A DNA stretch of 64,000 bases, from positions 248,001 through 312,000 of the forward strand of contig JAHBXW010000001.1 in NCBI GenBank assembly GCA_019636235.1. The letters run 5' to 3'. Below, piece by piece: positions 56,701 through 61,540 of the stretch. Within the stretch, counting starts at the first letter, position 1. Each line of letters starts with the position of its first letter. Position numbers and translations under genes: made by a program. The DNA is from Planctomyces sp. (GTDB lineage: Bacteria; Planctomycetota; Planctomycetia; Planctomycetales; Planctomycetaceae). The notes beneath the pieces were generated by a model. The model was not told where the DNA came from. It saw only the letters and a program-made list of their open reading frames with translations, and ran no database searches.

Positions 56701-57114
56701 GATCGGGCGCACGCGTCGATTCGTCGCTGGACGGCCCCGCGCGCCGGTTCGATTGCCATTCAGTCACGGATCGTCCACGAGCCCCCGCCCGGAGACGGCA
56801 TTCGCGCGTTCGTCGTCAGCTCCCGAACAGGGCTGCTGCAGTTTGCGAAAGTTCACCAGCAGACCTCTGAGTGGAGTCTTGCGGCGCTGACGGTCGAACC
56901 GGGGGAGACGATTGACTTCATCGTGGACATCGGCGACGAGTTGAACAGCGATCAGTATCTGTGGAGCGTGACGCTGACCGAGCAGGGGGTGGAAGCGCCT
57001 GTTCGCTGGAGTTCCACGGAGGACTTTCCGCGAGCCACGCCGACGCAATTATCGCCGCTGGAGCAACTGGCGCAGGTGCTGTTGAGTTCCAACGAGTTCC
57101 TGTTCGTGGATTAG
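53767..57114 (+). CDS. PSD1 / DUF1549 / DUF1553 protein with c-type-like heme motifs
   Basis: A GTG at 53767 with GGGAG (53755-53759) gives 1115 residues and a clean leader (TRRCLQLALMAGVLTLGALT). The N-terminal PSD1 domain has C56-x2-C59-H60 (HCQSCHGAKKQEGGLRLD). DUF1549 follows, with WLDLARYSDTKGY and a second motif C351-x2-C354-H355 (CARCHDHKYDPIP). DUF1553 follows with TARVFVNRVWMGHFGEGLV. A beta domain (about 919-1093) is inserted before the closing LAQVLLSSNEFLFVD. The protein should bind heme outside the cytoplasm; the substrate is unknown. The DUF1501 gene next door is its usual partner. Confidence 0.92.
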   Translation: MDSDRRSGVQLTRRCLQLALMAGVLTLGALTSTTLAAETGFDHFETSVRPLLVEHCQSCHGAKKQEGGLRLDLKSGPLTGGDSGPAIVPGQPGESLLLKAVRHEDGLEMPPRQPQLSADAIAALEQWISAGAAWPEADAPTEASIAERAAGHWAFQPVSRPEPPEIANSDWVRTPIDRFVLARLNATGLSPSPEADRRTLIRRATYALTGLPPTADAVEAFVADPAPEAYEALVERLLDSPQFGEHWARQWLDLARYSDTKGYVYAREERFWTHAWTYRDWIVRALNEDLPYDRFLLLQLAADQVEDARPDDLAAMGFLTLGRRFLGVKRDIIDDRIDVVTRGTMGLTAACARCHDHKYDPIPTADYYSLYGVFDSCREERVPLGRGDEAFEAELASRQRKLDELLQSKRVETAARVRGRIGDYLQAQFELENYPEEGFDQVIQTTDLLPSFVRRWQAALRAAEQNQDPVFRAWHAFRTLPGDAFAAEAVAVAETLRVESGGWNPLVSGLFADPPRSMAEVNQRYGELFAKIDADWQAALQAAGESGGAAPEGLADPAAEEIRQWMYRSGGPCVVPDEPVVHTEYDFDSGTCNELWRLQAEVDRWIIDSPAGVAQAVLLRDRETPAEPRIFRRGNPANLGEDVPRRFLELLAGPDRRPFETGSGRLEMAQRIVDPENPLTARVFVNRVWMGHFGEGLVTTPSDFGTRAEPPSHPELLDWLAASAIDGGWSVKALHRMIVLSATFRQSSSGPEDADALARAQQLDPANRLLWRMNARRLSFEEFRDSLLAASGELDPQSGGKPVNLFATPYPRRRTLYGLVDRQFLPATLRIFDFANPDLHLPKRAETTVPQQALFLLNHPLMLERVRALAGRIQSEPESEGAVVELFQRALQRPPSADESLAALELLAIDEPLATPEASPTAGDWTYGFGAYEEAGGRTRSFTPLPHFTGTAWQGGPSFPDGPLGWVQLTADGGHPGNDRAHASIRRWTAPRAGSIAIQSRIVHEPPPGDGIRAFVVSSRTGLLQFAKVHQQTSEWSLAALTVEPGETIDFIVDIGDELNSDQYLWSVTLTEQGVEAPVRWSSTEDFPRATPTQLSPLEQLAQVLLSSNEFLFVD

Positions 57115-57170
57115 CGGTTTCGGGGTCGCGTTTTGGCGTGTTCCCCTGGATTCTGGAAGGCGAACGACCC

Positions 57171-58592
57171 ATGCATCGTCCAGTATTTCCTGGCAGTCTC
57201 CGGCGGCGCGATGTGCTGGCCAGGTCCGCATTGGGCCTGGGGGCGCTGGGCCTCGCGGGCGTGCTGCGGGATCAGGGAGAGTTGCTGGCGGGAGATGACG
57301 CGCAATCTCCCCTGGCGCCGCGGCAGCCGCATTTCGACTCCCGGGCGAAGCGAGTCATCCACTTCTTCCTGAACGGCGGTCCGTCGCACGTCGATACGTT
57401 CGACCACAAGCCGGCGCTCAAGGAATACGAGGGGCGGACGGTCGAGGGGACGCTGCGCACGGAGCGCAAGACGGGTGCAGCGTTCCCGTCGCCGTTCGAA
57501 TTCCGTCCCCGTGGCGAATCCGGGCTGATGATCAGCGACCTGTTCTCGCGGACGGCCGAGCACGCGGACGACATCGCCGTCATCCGTTCCATGTATGCGC
57601 AGGTGCCGAACCACGAGCCTTCGCTGATGCTGATGAACTGCGGCGACTCGGTTCAGCCGCGTCCCAGCGTGGGCGCGTGGGTGCTGTACGGGCTGGGGAC
57701 CGAGAACCAGAACCTGCCGGGATTCGTGGCGATGTGCCCGGGGGGCATGCCGATCAAGGATTCGGAAAACTGGCAGTCGGGCTTCCTGCCGGGGGCGCTG
57801 CAGGGGACATATGTCGATTCGCAGCACAAGGAGCTGAGCCGGCTGATCGAGAACATCGAACACCCGCAGATCTCGACGGCGGCCCAGCGGCGGCAACTGG
57901 ACCTGTTGGCGAAGCTGAACGCCGAACATCGCGCGGCGCGGCTGGATTCCCGACTGGACGCGCGGATTCAATCGTTTGAGCTCGCGTTCCGGATGCAGCG
58001 GGACGCCAGCGAGGCGTTCGACCTGACCGAGGAACCGGAGCACGTCCAGCAGGCGTACGGGGACGGCGTGCATGGCCGGCAGACGCTGATCGCCCGCCGG
58101 CTACTGGAGCGGGGCGTCCGCTACGTCCAGTTGTGGCACGGGGCGGGGCAGCCCTGGGACAATCACGACAACATCGAGAAGAACCACCGCACGCTGGCCG
58201 GACAGATCGACCAGCCGATCGCCGCGCTGATCGCCGACCTCAAGCAGCGGGGAATGTTCGACGACACGTTGATCATCTGGGGGGGCGAATTCGGGCGGAC
58301 TCCGACCGTCGAGCTGGGCGGCGACGGCAAATCGCAGCTGGGCCGGGACCACAACCACTATGGGTTCAGCGTCTGGCTGGCAGGGGGCGGCATCAAGGGG
58401 GGACAGGCCTACGGCGCGACGGACGAGCTCGGCTTCCAGGCGGTGGAGAATCCGGTCAGCGTGCATGACCTGCACGCGACGGTCCTGCACCAGCTCGGTT
58501 TCGACCATGAACGGCTGACGTATCGCTATGCCGGCCGGGATTTCCGGCTGACGGACGTGCACGGCCGGGTGATTCGTGAGATTCTGGCGTGA
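57171..58592 (+). CDS. DUF1501 protein, partner of the PSD1/DUF1553 protein
   Basis: The start at 57171 (GGAAGG upstream) gives 473 residues with a Tat-type leader (SLRRRDVLARSALGLGALGL). DUF1501 signatures are VIHFFLNGGPSHVDTFDHKP, a DHNHYGFSVWLAGGG segment and WGGEFGRTPTVELGGDGK, matching the sulfatase-like fold. The spacing of 56 bp from the PSD1 gene and same strand fit the widespread DUF1553-DUF1501 pair of planctomycetes, whose joint activity is often linked to sulfated or complex polysaccharide use but is unproven. Confidence 0.93.
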   Translation: MHRPVFPGSLRRRDVLARSALGLGALGLAGVLRDQGELLAGDDAQSPLAPRQPHFDSRAKRVIHFFLNGGPSHVDTFDHKPALKEYEGRTVEGTLRTERKTGAAFPSPFEFRPRGESGLMISDLFSRTAEHADDIAVIRSMYAQVPNHEPSLMLMNCGDSVQPRPSVGAWVLYGLGTENQNLPGFVAMCPGGMPIKDSENWQSGFLPGALQGTYVDSQHKELSRLIENIEHPQISTAAQRRQLDLLAKLNAEHRAARLDSRLDARIQSFELAFRMQRDASEAFDLTEEPEHVQQAYGDGVHGRQTLIARRLLERGVRYVQLWHGAGQPWDNHDNIEKNHRTLAGQIDQPIAALIADLKQRGMFDDTLIIWGGEFGRTPTVELGGDGKSQLGRDHNHYGFSVWLAGGGIKGGQAYGATDELGFQAVENPVSVHDLHATVLHQLGFDHERLTYRYAGRDFRLTDVHGRVIREILA

Positions 58593-58699: not shown

Positions 58700-59269
58700 G
58701 TGAGCAACTCAGCCAGCCGACAGATTCCTGAGTTCCGAGAGGATGGTTACCTTCCAGTTGGTGTGTTTCGCGCTTCCGCTGAAAAAGTCATATTCCGCTT
58801 TGGTTCGCCGAATCGGAAGCGACGCCAACTCGTGCTGCGAATCCGTCGCTGGATTGAACTCGCGAAGGCAGTCGGCGCCATTAAACTATTGGTTGATGGC
58901 AGTTTTGTGACTTCAGCAGAGTCTCCGAATGATGTGGACGCCGTCGTGTGGTTGCCCTTGGATTTTGCCGAGCAGCTTGCGCGCACTTTTGAGCCGGCGA
59001 TGGAACTTGAGTCGATGCTGCTGTCGCGAAGTCCAGAAGAGCAAGGGGCTGGTGGAGGTGGAGCTATGATCTCGACTCTGACGGAATACGAGCGTGCCCG
59101 CGATGAACTTCGGGATCTGGAAAGCCGACTCGGTCGGCTTGAGCAGGAGTATCCGATTGGAAAGAAGGGGTACACGAAGGCGGGCGTGCGGAAGTTGATC
59201 GCGAGGCTGCATGAGGAGTTGGCTGTCTATGAAGGGGCCGAGGCTTCGAGGTCCACGGAAACTCAGTAG
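58700..59269 (+). CDS. Nucleotidyltransferase-like (DUF6932-type) protein fused to a coiled-coil partner
   Basis: A GTG start with GAGAG upstream gives 189 residues. Residues 1-112 look like the DUF6932 nucleotidyltransferase group: YLPVGVFRASAEKVIFRFG, and the NTase core G67-S68-x9-D78-V-D80 in LLVDGSFVTSAESPNDVDAV. A Gly-rich linker (116-121) leads to a charged helical segment (123-178: YERARDELRDLESRLGRLE, YTKAGVRKLIARLHEELAVY). The linker's codons read GGTGGAGGTGGAG directly before an internal ATG (59066), an excellent ribosome-binding site, so the second part may also be made alone. Lower GC than its neighbours. Possible fused toxin-antitoxin-like pair. Confidence 0.7.
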   Translation: MSNSASRQIPEFREDGYLPVGVFRASAEKVIFRFGSPNRKRRQLVLRIRRWIELAKAVGAIKLLVDGSFVTSAESPNDVDAVVWLPLDFAEQLARTFEPAMELESMLLSRSPEEQGAGGGGAMISTLTEYERARDELRDLESRLGRLEQEYPIGKKGYTKAGVRKLIARLHEELAVYEGAEASRSTETQ

Positions 59270-59326: not shown

Positions 59327-60355
59327 ATGACGCGAAGGATCGTCCGTCCCGACAAGCTCGATCTCGATTCCCCCGGCCGGCGGGATTACTGGGTGGCGCT
59401 CGAACACGACAGCATCTGGGGGGATCACCTGATCCCGCTGACGGTGTTCGTCGGACCTGAGGCGCGGGACGGGCAGGGGCTGGTCGCGTTCGGCTCGAAT
59501 CACGGCAACGAATACGAAGGGCCCGTCGTCCTCAAACACCTGTTGCGGCAGATCCGCATCGAGGATGTCCGCGGCCGGGTGATTCTGATTCCCGTTCTGA
59601 ATCCCGCGGCCTTTCTCGCGGGCACGCGCGAAAGCCGGCTGGACGACGACGTGAACCTGAACCGGGCGTTTGTGGACGGGGCGGGCGTGACGCCGGCGCT
59701 GGGCGGCATCACCCACCGCATCGCGGCGTTCGTGCGGCAGCAGATCTGGCCGCGCGTGCACATCGTCCTCGACCTGCATTCGGGAGGAGACGTCGCGCGG
59801 TTCGCGATCTGCGCGAACTATCACCCGCTCGAAGACCCCGCGCTCAGCGCACAGATCGAGGACACGGCGCGATGGTTCGGCACGCCGGCCATCATGGTCT
59901 ACCAGAACCTCACGCCGGGGTTATTGCCCAGCGAGGCCGAGCGGCTGGGCAAGATCACCGTGGGAACCGAGTTGGGCTGGGGCCGGGCCGTCAACACGGA
60001 CGGCGTCCGATACGGGCGGCAGGGAGTGCTGGCGGCGCTCATCCGCAACGGCCTGCTGCACGGCACGATCGAGCCGATCGGACATCACCGCGACGGCACG
60101 CAGCGCAAGCTGGAGATGGTCGACCGCGACTGCTTTATCCCCGCGCCGTTCGCCGGCCATTACGAACCGCTCATCGACTGCGGCGCGGCGGTCCAGCGCG
60201 GTCAGACCGTCGGCCTGCTGCATGATTTCGACCACATTGACCTCGAGCCCTGGCCCTGCGTCGCGGCGCTGGACGGCGTCGTGCTGGCCCAGGCCTGGGC
60301 CGCGCCGGTGCCGAAAGGCCAGCACATCGTCGTGGTGGCCCGCGACATCACCTGA
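59327..60355 (+). CDS. Succinylglutamate desuccinylase/aspartoacylase-family metallohydrolase
   Basis: A 342-residue protein behind AGGTGA. The zinc site of the AstE/AspA group is visible: FGSNHGNEYEGPVVL (His and Glu), DVNLNRAF and VLDLHSGGDVARF (second His). The C-terminal half has FAGHYEPLIDCGAAVQRGQ, the beta-barrel segment of the AstE/AspA-like group. It would remove an acyl group from an amino-acid or sugar-acid amide, or process a related carboxylate. It begins a plus-strand run with the enolase-type enzyme and the MFS transporter, which suggests catabolism of one substrate. Confidence 0.87.
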   Translation: MTRRIVRPDKLDLDSPGRRDYWVALEHDSIWGDHLIPLTVFVGPEARDGQGLVAFGSNHGNEYEGPVVLKHLLRQIRIEDVRGRVILIPVLNPAAFLAGTRESRLDDDVNLNRAFVDGAGVTPALGGITHRIAAFVRQQIWPRVHIVLDLHSGGDVARFAICANYHPLEDPALSAQIEDTARWFGTPAIMVYQNLTPGLLPSEAERLGKITVGTELGWGRAVNTDGVRYGRQGVLAALIRNGLLHGTIEPIGHHRDGTQRKLEMVDRDCFIPAPFAGHYEPLIDCGAAVQRGQTVGLLHDFDHIDLEPWPCVAALDGVVLAQAWAAPVPKGQHIVVVARDIT

Positions 60356-60418
60356 GCCCGCCATCCGCGGGGCATTCCAGTCTTCCTTCCATTCGATCGA
60401 TCCCTCTTCGGTTCCCTT

Positions 60419-61540
60419 ATGAAGATCACGGAAATCGTCTGTCAGATCCTGCGGATCAAGAATGTCGAGGCCAAGACCGCCAGCAGTCAGGATTCGGTCC
60501 TGGTGCGGGTCCGGACCGACAACGGCCTGGAAGGCATCGGCGAAGCGGACTCCTCGCCGGAAATGGTGAAGGCCGTCATCGATGCGCCCTTCAGTCACAA
60601 CGTGGCGACCGGCCTGCGGCAGCTGTTGATCGGCGAGAATCCGCTGGAGACCGAACGGCTGTGGCAGACGATGTACCGCCGGACCATGTATTGCGGCCGT
60701 CGGTCGGTCACGCTGACGGCCATGTCGGCGATCGACATGGCGCTGTGGGACATCAAGGGCAAGCACTTCGGCGAGCCGATCCACCGGCTGCTGGGGGGCA
60801 AACGCCACTGCCGGATCCTGGCGTACGCGTCGATCCTGTTCGGCAAGAACGGGGATGAGACGGCGGAGATCGGCCGCCGCTGGCGGGAGGCGGGCTACAA
60901 GGCGGTGAAGTTCGGCTGGGAGCCGATGGGGGAGAGCGAGGCGGTGGACGTCGACCTGGTGCGCGGGGCGCGGCGGGGCGTCGGGAATGACGGGACCGTG
61001 CTGATCGACGCGGGCTGCGTCTGGGACGCTCGAACCGCGCTGCAGCGTGCGGAGGCGTTCGCCGAGCAGAAGATCGGCTGGCTGGAGGAGGCCCTGCATC
61101 CGGACGATTATGAGGGCTACCGCTGGCTGCGGGATCGCTCGCCGGTGCCGATCGCGGCGGGGGAGGAGGAATGCGGTCGGCAGTCGTTCCGGCCGCTGAT
61201 CGACGGCCGCTGCCTGGACATCTATCAGGTCGATCTGTCGCGGAACGGGTTCACGGACGCCGCGTACATCCGGCAGCGCGTCGAAGAGATTGGCGCGCGG
61301 CTGTGCAATCACTGTTACACCAGTCCCGTGACGGTGGCGGCCAGCCTGCACTGGCTGAGCACCTGTCGGGACGCGTTTCTGTTTGAGGACTGCGTCGAGG
61401 ATTCGCCGCTGCGGCACGAGTTGACGCAGGAACGGGTGCAGGCGGTGGACGGCTGGATCGAAGTGCCGGACCGCCCGGGCCTGGGAGTGACGCTGAATGA
61501 GGACTTCGTGCGTTCGACGCTGATCTCGGAATCGGCATGA
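60419..61540 (+). CDS. Enolase-superfamily enzyme (mandelate racemase / muconate lactonizing group)
   Basis: A 373-residue protein with the capping domain start KITEIVCQILRIKNVEAKTA and a barrel. Metal ligands are D in VLIDAGCVWD, E in GWLEEALHPDD and E in AAGEEECGRQSF. Candidate acid/base residues are the lysine in GYKAVKFGWEP and the histidine in LCNHCYTSPVT. Members abstract a proton next to a carboxylate to dehydrate or racemise sugar acids. It sits between the metallohydrolase and MFS genes, which supports a sugar-acid or related catabolic route. Dehydratase is more likely than racemase, but unproven. Confidence 0.9.
   Translation: MKITEIVCQILRIKNVEAKTASSQDSVLVRVRTDNGLEGIGEADSSPEMVKAVIDAPFSHNVATGLRQLLIGENPLETERLWQTMYRRTMYCGRRSVTLTAMSAIDMALWDIKGKHFGEPIHRLLGGKRHCRILAYASILFGKNGDETAEIGRRWREAGYKAVKFGWEPMGESEAVDVDLVRGARRGVGNDGTVLIDAGCVWDARTALQRAEAFAEQKIGWLEEALHPDDYEGYRWLRDRSPVPIAAGEEECGRQSFRPLIDGRCLDIYQVDLSRNGFTDAAYIRQRVEEIGARLCNHCYTSPVTVAASLHWLSTCRDAFLFEDCVEDSPLRHELTQERVQAVDGWIEVPDRPGLGVTLNEDFVRSTLISESA

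Follow-up and report, generated by a model that had tools for sequence, protein, structure and literature searches.

In HEPN/MNT systems, a minimal nucleotidyltransferase (NTase) is encoded in a small two-gene operon (PMC2701414). The Xre-MNT type II toxin-antitoxin (TA) systems, such as Xress-MNTss of Streptococcus suis, comprise an NTase toxin encoded beside its antitoxin (PMC8406773), and in MenAT the NTase is likewise the toxin of a two-gene module (PMC10435456, PMC11541572). DUF6932 (PF22014) is a Pfam family of unknown function that carries an NTase motif, GS-x9-DxD, and our literature search did not find a paper on it. We analysed a 64,000-nucleotide stretch of Planctomyces sp. DNA, referred to here as the window, in which one open reading frame (ORF) shares this motif and differs from DUF6932 by its fusion to a partner. 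The parts of this ORF are as follows.

58700-59269, plus strand: fused ORF, GTG start at 58700, TAG stop at 59269, 189 aa.
58700-59041, plus strand: truncated DUF6932 NTase, residues 1-114, with the catalytic GS-x9-DVD (PF22014 profile match, alignment to intact homologues).
59041-59042, plus strand: deletion junction, placement +/- 1-2 nt (DNA alignment).
59043-59069, plus strand: old 3' end of the NTase gene, out of frame, AAG GGG CTG GTG GAG GTG GAG CTA TGA, encoding KGLVEVEL and stop (sequence, homologue alignment).
59054-59058, plus strand: GGAGG Shine-Dalgarno (SD) site of the partner gene, 7 nt 5' of its ATG (duplex energy, homologues).
59066-59269, plus strand: gene of the 67-aa partner, a helical hairpin (coiled coil), with its native ATG at 59066 and the ATGA overlap kept (partner alignment, fusion model).

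The original prediction had read G67, S68, D78 and D80 as the hG[GS]x9-13DhD core of NTases of the MNT/DUF6932 kind. This reading held, as residues 10-100 matched PF22014 with an E-value of 1.3e-20 and 74.7 bits (curated cut-off 27 bits) and the four residues were invariant in the alignment of relatives. The match covered only positions 1-91 of the 142 in the profile, the remainder being deleted or out of frame, and alignment to homologues shows the copy to be short of the family's final ~35 residues. The window copy is a truncated rather than an intact DUF6932 member. The second half, 67 aa from ATG 59066, had no significant match among the Pfam, NCBIfam, PADLOC and PHROGs models. Searching PDB sequences gave no convincing relative. 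A GreA-like assignment of the partner was rejected, the E-values of 0.001-0.2 falling under the cut-off and reflecting a coiled-coil resemblance. The gene is present in one copy in the source genome. Its GC content, noted as low in the original prediction, is 57% compared to 65-68% in the flanks, and third-position GC is 0.55 in the NTase part, 0.69 in the partner and 0.87 in the neighbours.

Homologues of the fused ORF were searched for in 149 related genomes and in GTDB contigs, and relatives were found in Planctomycetes, Deltaproteobacteria and Limisphaerales MAGs. In these relatives' loci, the NTase and the partner are read in different frames. The TGA stop of the NTase gene overlaps the start of the partner gene by 4 nt in each of the 18 intact pairs (L002-L006, L031-L038, L094, L096 and L098-L100). 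The search for genomes with two adjacent genes, which had been proposed, yielded these 18 intact two-gene loci, and the homologues are not one conserved polypeptide. The part from Met123, encoded by ATG 59066, had been taken for a separate small protein, and it has its own gene in each of these 18 relatives. Comparison with them shows that the internal start of the window ORF is the native start of the partner. The strong SD signal pointed out before this ATG is a native site: GGAGG forms a duplex of -10.6 kcal/mol with the anti-SD, an energy equalled or beaten by 1.6% of the 744 plus-strand ATGs of the window, and a similar site is found in most intact homologues. The region around ATG 59066 was also less folded than 200 of 200 shuffles (z +2.4). 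The strong SD site and the weak folding make separate production of the partner plausible, and the partner is probably still made from its own start in the window. Its identity to the partners of alignment A1 is 52-65%. It keeps all 14 positions that are otherwise invariant, and the NTase part departs at 3 of 29.

DNA alignment revealed that exactly 80 nt are absent from the window; they are present, without indels there, in 15 of 15 aligned homologues, where the segment codes for IFAAED..DW..W.EFFSRTRE.DGRR. In relatives the NTase ends with KGLVEVEL, and the same letters survive directly after the junction in the other frame. Since 80 is 2 modulo 3, the deletion shifts the NTase frame into the partner frame. 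The Gly-rich stretch that had been described at the join is present, but it is the old NTase tail read out of frame and hence an accident of frame. A programmed frameshift or an evolved linker is ruled out by the 80 missing nt and by the old tail lying intact in another frame. We are close to certain that a deletion fused two overlapping genes, and the small remainder falls to an error of sequencing or assembly, in which case the real gene would contain the 80 nt and the locus would be an ordinary two-gene module. Such an error is very improbable. The genome is a 45-contig draft assembly and the only genome of its species in the comparison, but its completeness is 99.99 with contamination of 0.07, a clean 80-nt internal deletion is atypical for base-calling, and NTase damage recurs in unrelated relatives (see below).

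To place the deletion on the fold, we used an AlphaFold2 model of an intact homologue (L032, NTase at 917-1342; pLDDT 95), which has strands at residues 55-59 (before the GS loop), 73-77 (DxD), 108-111 and 136-140 and a helix at 114-125. The deletion corresponds to residues 108-134 of this model, so that strand 108-111 and helix 114-125 are lost and the last strand is out of frame; the out-of-frame deletion removed about a quarter of the NTase. A model of the fusion itself reached a pLDDT of 72.5, dropping below 50 at the junction and to 52 across residues 71-80 of the active site, which is weak evidence, since the alignment was shallow and trimmed. It placed the partner helices at residues 126-150 and 160-188 of the fused ORF. 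As the missing segment codes for a core strand and helix, the NTase is very probably inactive in the window copy.

The original prediction had offered two possibilities, two overlapping genes that became one or one gene with two products. The 4-nt overlap in relatives and the 80-nt gap support the first. In the second, the fusion would be functional, a single-chain protein in which a tethered NTase is restrained by its own partner, with a free shorter partner made from the internal start. The frame is indeed open through the join, the GS and DxD residues are kept, which also counts against our overall reading, the partner half shows good conservation, and both the SD site and the ATG inside the gene are strong. 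An open frame needs no selection, however, since one in three random deletions at this place would leave an open fusion, and the fusion therefore does not imply selection. Every intact subfamily member has the core strand and helix that are lost here, and no second fusion was found among the ~30 loci with a 67-aa hairpin partner. We consider a working fusion highly unlikely.

The fold of the NTase was examined by structural comparison. The best neighbours of the intact L032 model were NTases, namely AadA (Z 5.4), 1ylq (5.3), a CCA-adding enzyme and Pol X, all with Z below 8, and a Foldseek search for the NTase fold did not reach E < 0.1. Because the Z-scores are low and the Foldseek matches are not significant, the fold assignment rests on the motif together with the list of structural neighbours. 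The comparison with NTase structures that had been suggested thus agrees in the kind of protein recovered and falls short in significance, also for the MNT entry 7ae9.

To determine if one half is kept without the other, we searched 170 genomes of the same family with each half separately. All nine intact NTases were accompanied by a partner (9/9), and six of 15 partners had no intact NTase (the window, G508, G037, G052, G538 and G540); an NTase match cut by a contig end (G563) and a decayed partner (G567) were excluded from the count. This is the pattern of type II TA systems, in which an antitoxin is found without its toxin and never the reverse, at modest significance. In the set obtained with the whole protein as query, the NTase was broken and the partner kept in seven loci, and the reverse was seen in none. 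The loci with a deleted, truncated or frameshifted NTase and a kept partner are the window, L007 (in which the partner tail is short), L008, L040, L041, L042, L043, L092, L097 and L101. Both genes have decayed in L054, L103, L105 and L106, and no damaged partner was found beside an intact NTase in loci of the window's subfamily. A sign test gave p 0.016 if loss is equal and 0.10 when weighted by gene length, and the asymmetry is modest. A harmful NTase with a protective partner would be expected to decay in this way, but the asymmetry is not proof of it. Two of the orphan partners follow, by our reading, not an NTase gene but a gene for an HTH-like protein (L097) or a HicB-like protein (L043).

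The decay also bears on the assignment of roles. In HEPN/MNT the NTase is the antitoxin, and the top Foldseek row of our search, 7ae9, was an MNT with AMPylated HEPN, although not a significant match. By analogy, the hairpin partner could be the toxin and the NTase its antitoxin, silencing it by transferring nucleotides in the way MNT acts on HEPN. This reversal is unlikely, as it is the partner that is kept upon loss of the NTase, the partner has no HEPN match, and related partners carry an HTH of the antitoxin type. Membership in HEPN/MNT itself was ruled out, with HEPN matches in 0 of 20 partners.

We then compared DUF6932 loci beyond the window's subfamily. In a first locus set, every NTase gene was followed by a partner gene whose start lay at or close to -4. 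Searching the phylum with the Pfam model revealed three partner styles: the 67-aa hairpin, a hairpin with an XRE HTH, and a protein of ~310 aa, the last observed in L069, L071, L077, L080, L081 and L084. The XRE-type partners match HTH_3 with E-values of 1e-8 to 6e-10, and the partner in L015:1938-3236 combines an N-terminal hairpin and an XRE HTH with an IrrE/ImmA-like peptidase domain. The 67-aa partners matched the partners of L010 and L014, from other DUF6932 branches, with E-values below 1e-8, and matched the N-terminal part of XRE-type partners weakly (hmmsearch E 0.003-0.06, 31-sequence set). Collectively, the 4-nt overlap, the one-sided decay and the XRE partners elsewhere suggest, from sequence comparison, that the TA-like module of the original prediction was a sound proposal.

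Exceptions to these styles were also found. On the Klebsiella plasmid NZ_CP141988.1 (L088:1495-2670), DUF6932 is the N-terminal part of a 392-aa protein without a hairpin partner, the C-terminal part of which reads like an alpha/beta hydrolase with an AHSFG motif and without a Pfam match there. This partnerless protein counts against the TA reading. A gene of similar length is present on a Pantoea plasmid (L090:1-1200). In Mycobacterium phage prophiGD21-3 (L087:353-2897), a DUF6932 NTase gene lies between an 'immunity repressor' gene and a 292-aa gene, overlapping each by 4 nt, next to the integrase; this looks like a module carried by a prophage.

A further reading is another kind of two-gene module, for phage defence or consisting of a nucleotidylating resistance enzyme and a helper. 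The NTase matches PDC-M63A, a model of the PADLOC phage-defence candidate PDC-M63AB, with an E-value of 3e-9 for the window copy and 1e-13 for the intact L032, judged by E-value; the fold neighbours include aminoglycoside nucleotidyltransferases, and a DUF6932 gene adjoins a repressor in mycobacterial prophages. However, the XRE-type and orphan partners fit a TA system better, and in the one test of such a pair, removing PDC-M63AB from an E. coli isolate made no difference to ten phages (PMC12409345). We give such a module a minority share of the probability.

The fused gene lies, as first described, between a DUF1501 gene (56961-58592) and a metabolic cluster, here an AstE/AspA and mandelate-racemase-like cluster (59327-61540). 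These two are neighbours in the window and not in G001, G002 or G034. No clean empty site emerged: G002 has the AstE/AspA-racemase block but neither the module nor an upstream DUF1501 gene, and G001 has a different gene after its closest DUF1501 gene. The module therefore sits at the meeting point of two blocks that are otherwise separate. The inverted repeats that had been reported upstream did not stand up as a functional element, as they were no better folded than shuffles (z -0.38), a repeat search reported no local inverted pair, and there was no Rfam match. A phage-borne module was rejected, since viral contigs yielded one decayed partner (L054) and no NTase of the window's subfamily.

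Together, these results make it likely that the locus is a TA-like two-gene module fused by an 80-bp deletion, with an NTase that is most likely dead and a partner probably kept as an orphan antitoxin. That the intact module is TA-like with the NTase as toxin is a somewhat weaker claim, which we hold as probable on balance. The ancestor was a module of foreign composition, with a DUF6932 NTase gene followed by the gene for the 67-aa hairpin partner at a 4-nt overlap. An out-of-frame deletion of 80 bp near the end of the NTase gene removed the strand and helix after the DxD strand, left the last strand in the wrong frame and created one reading frame that runs from the truncated NTase into the partner. 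We infer that the intact module works as a type II TA pair. Its NTase may modify a cellular target by nucleotide transfer, with tRNA as a candidate if MenT is a guide, and the hairpin partner, which would be equivalent to the N-terminal hairpin of XRE-type partners but without an HTH, may bind and restrain the NTase. In the window, the partner is probably made both as the tail of the fusion and from its own start, and would be an orphan antitoxin whose toxin has been lost.

For DUF6932, these findings mean that in almost all loci examined a small partner gene overlaps the NTase gene, and that the NTase decays as expected for a toxin whose antitoxin is kept, which offers a direct test of its function. 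By this analogy, the window copy would be a clear example of overlapping toxin and antitoxin genes fusing by one deletion.

Compared with the described systems, the layout is that of type II TA: every intact relative has a small operon of two genes that overlap by 4 nt, an arrangement that the fusion has abolished in the window. MenAT resembles the module in organisation and in the NTase as toxin. MenT belongs to a different NTase family. HEPN/MNT differs in that the partner here is not HEPN and the roles are apparently reversed. The PADLOC model PDC-M63B was not matched by the 67-aa partners. Xre-MNT is approached by other DUF6932 operons, which have XRE-HTH partners, and differs from the window partner and its 67-aa relatives, which have no HTH match. 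These comparisons point to the 67-aa partner as an antitoxin-like family that lacks a model in Pfam, NCBIfam, PADLOC and PHROGs, and suggest that DUF6932 with an HTH-less hairpin partner may form a TA-like family not described so far, with the window copy as a decayed member.
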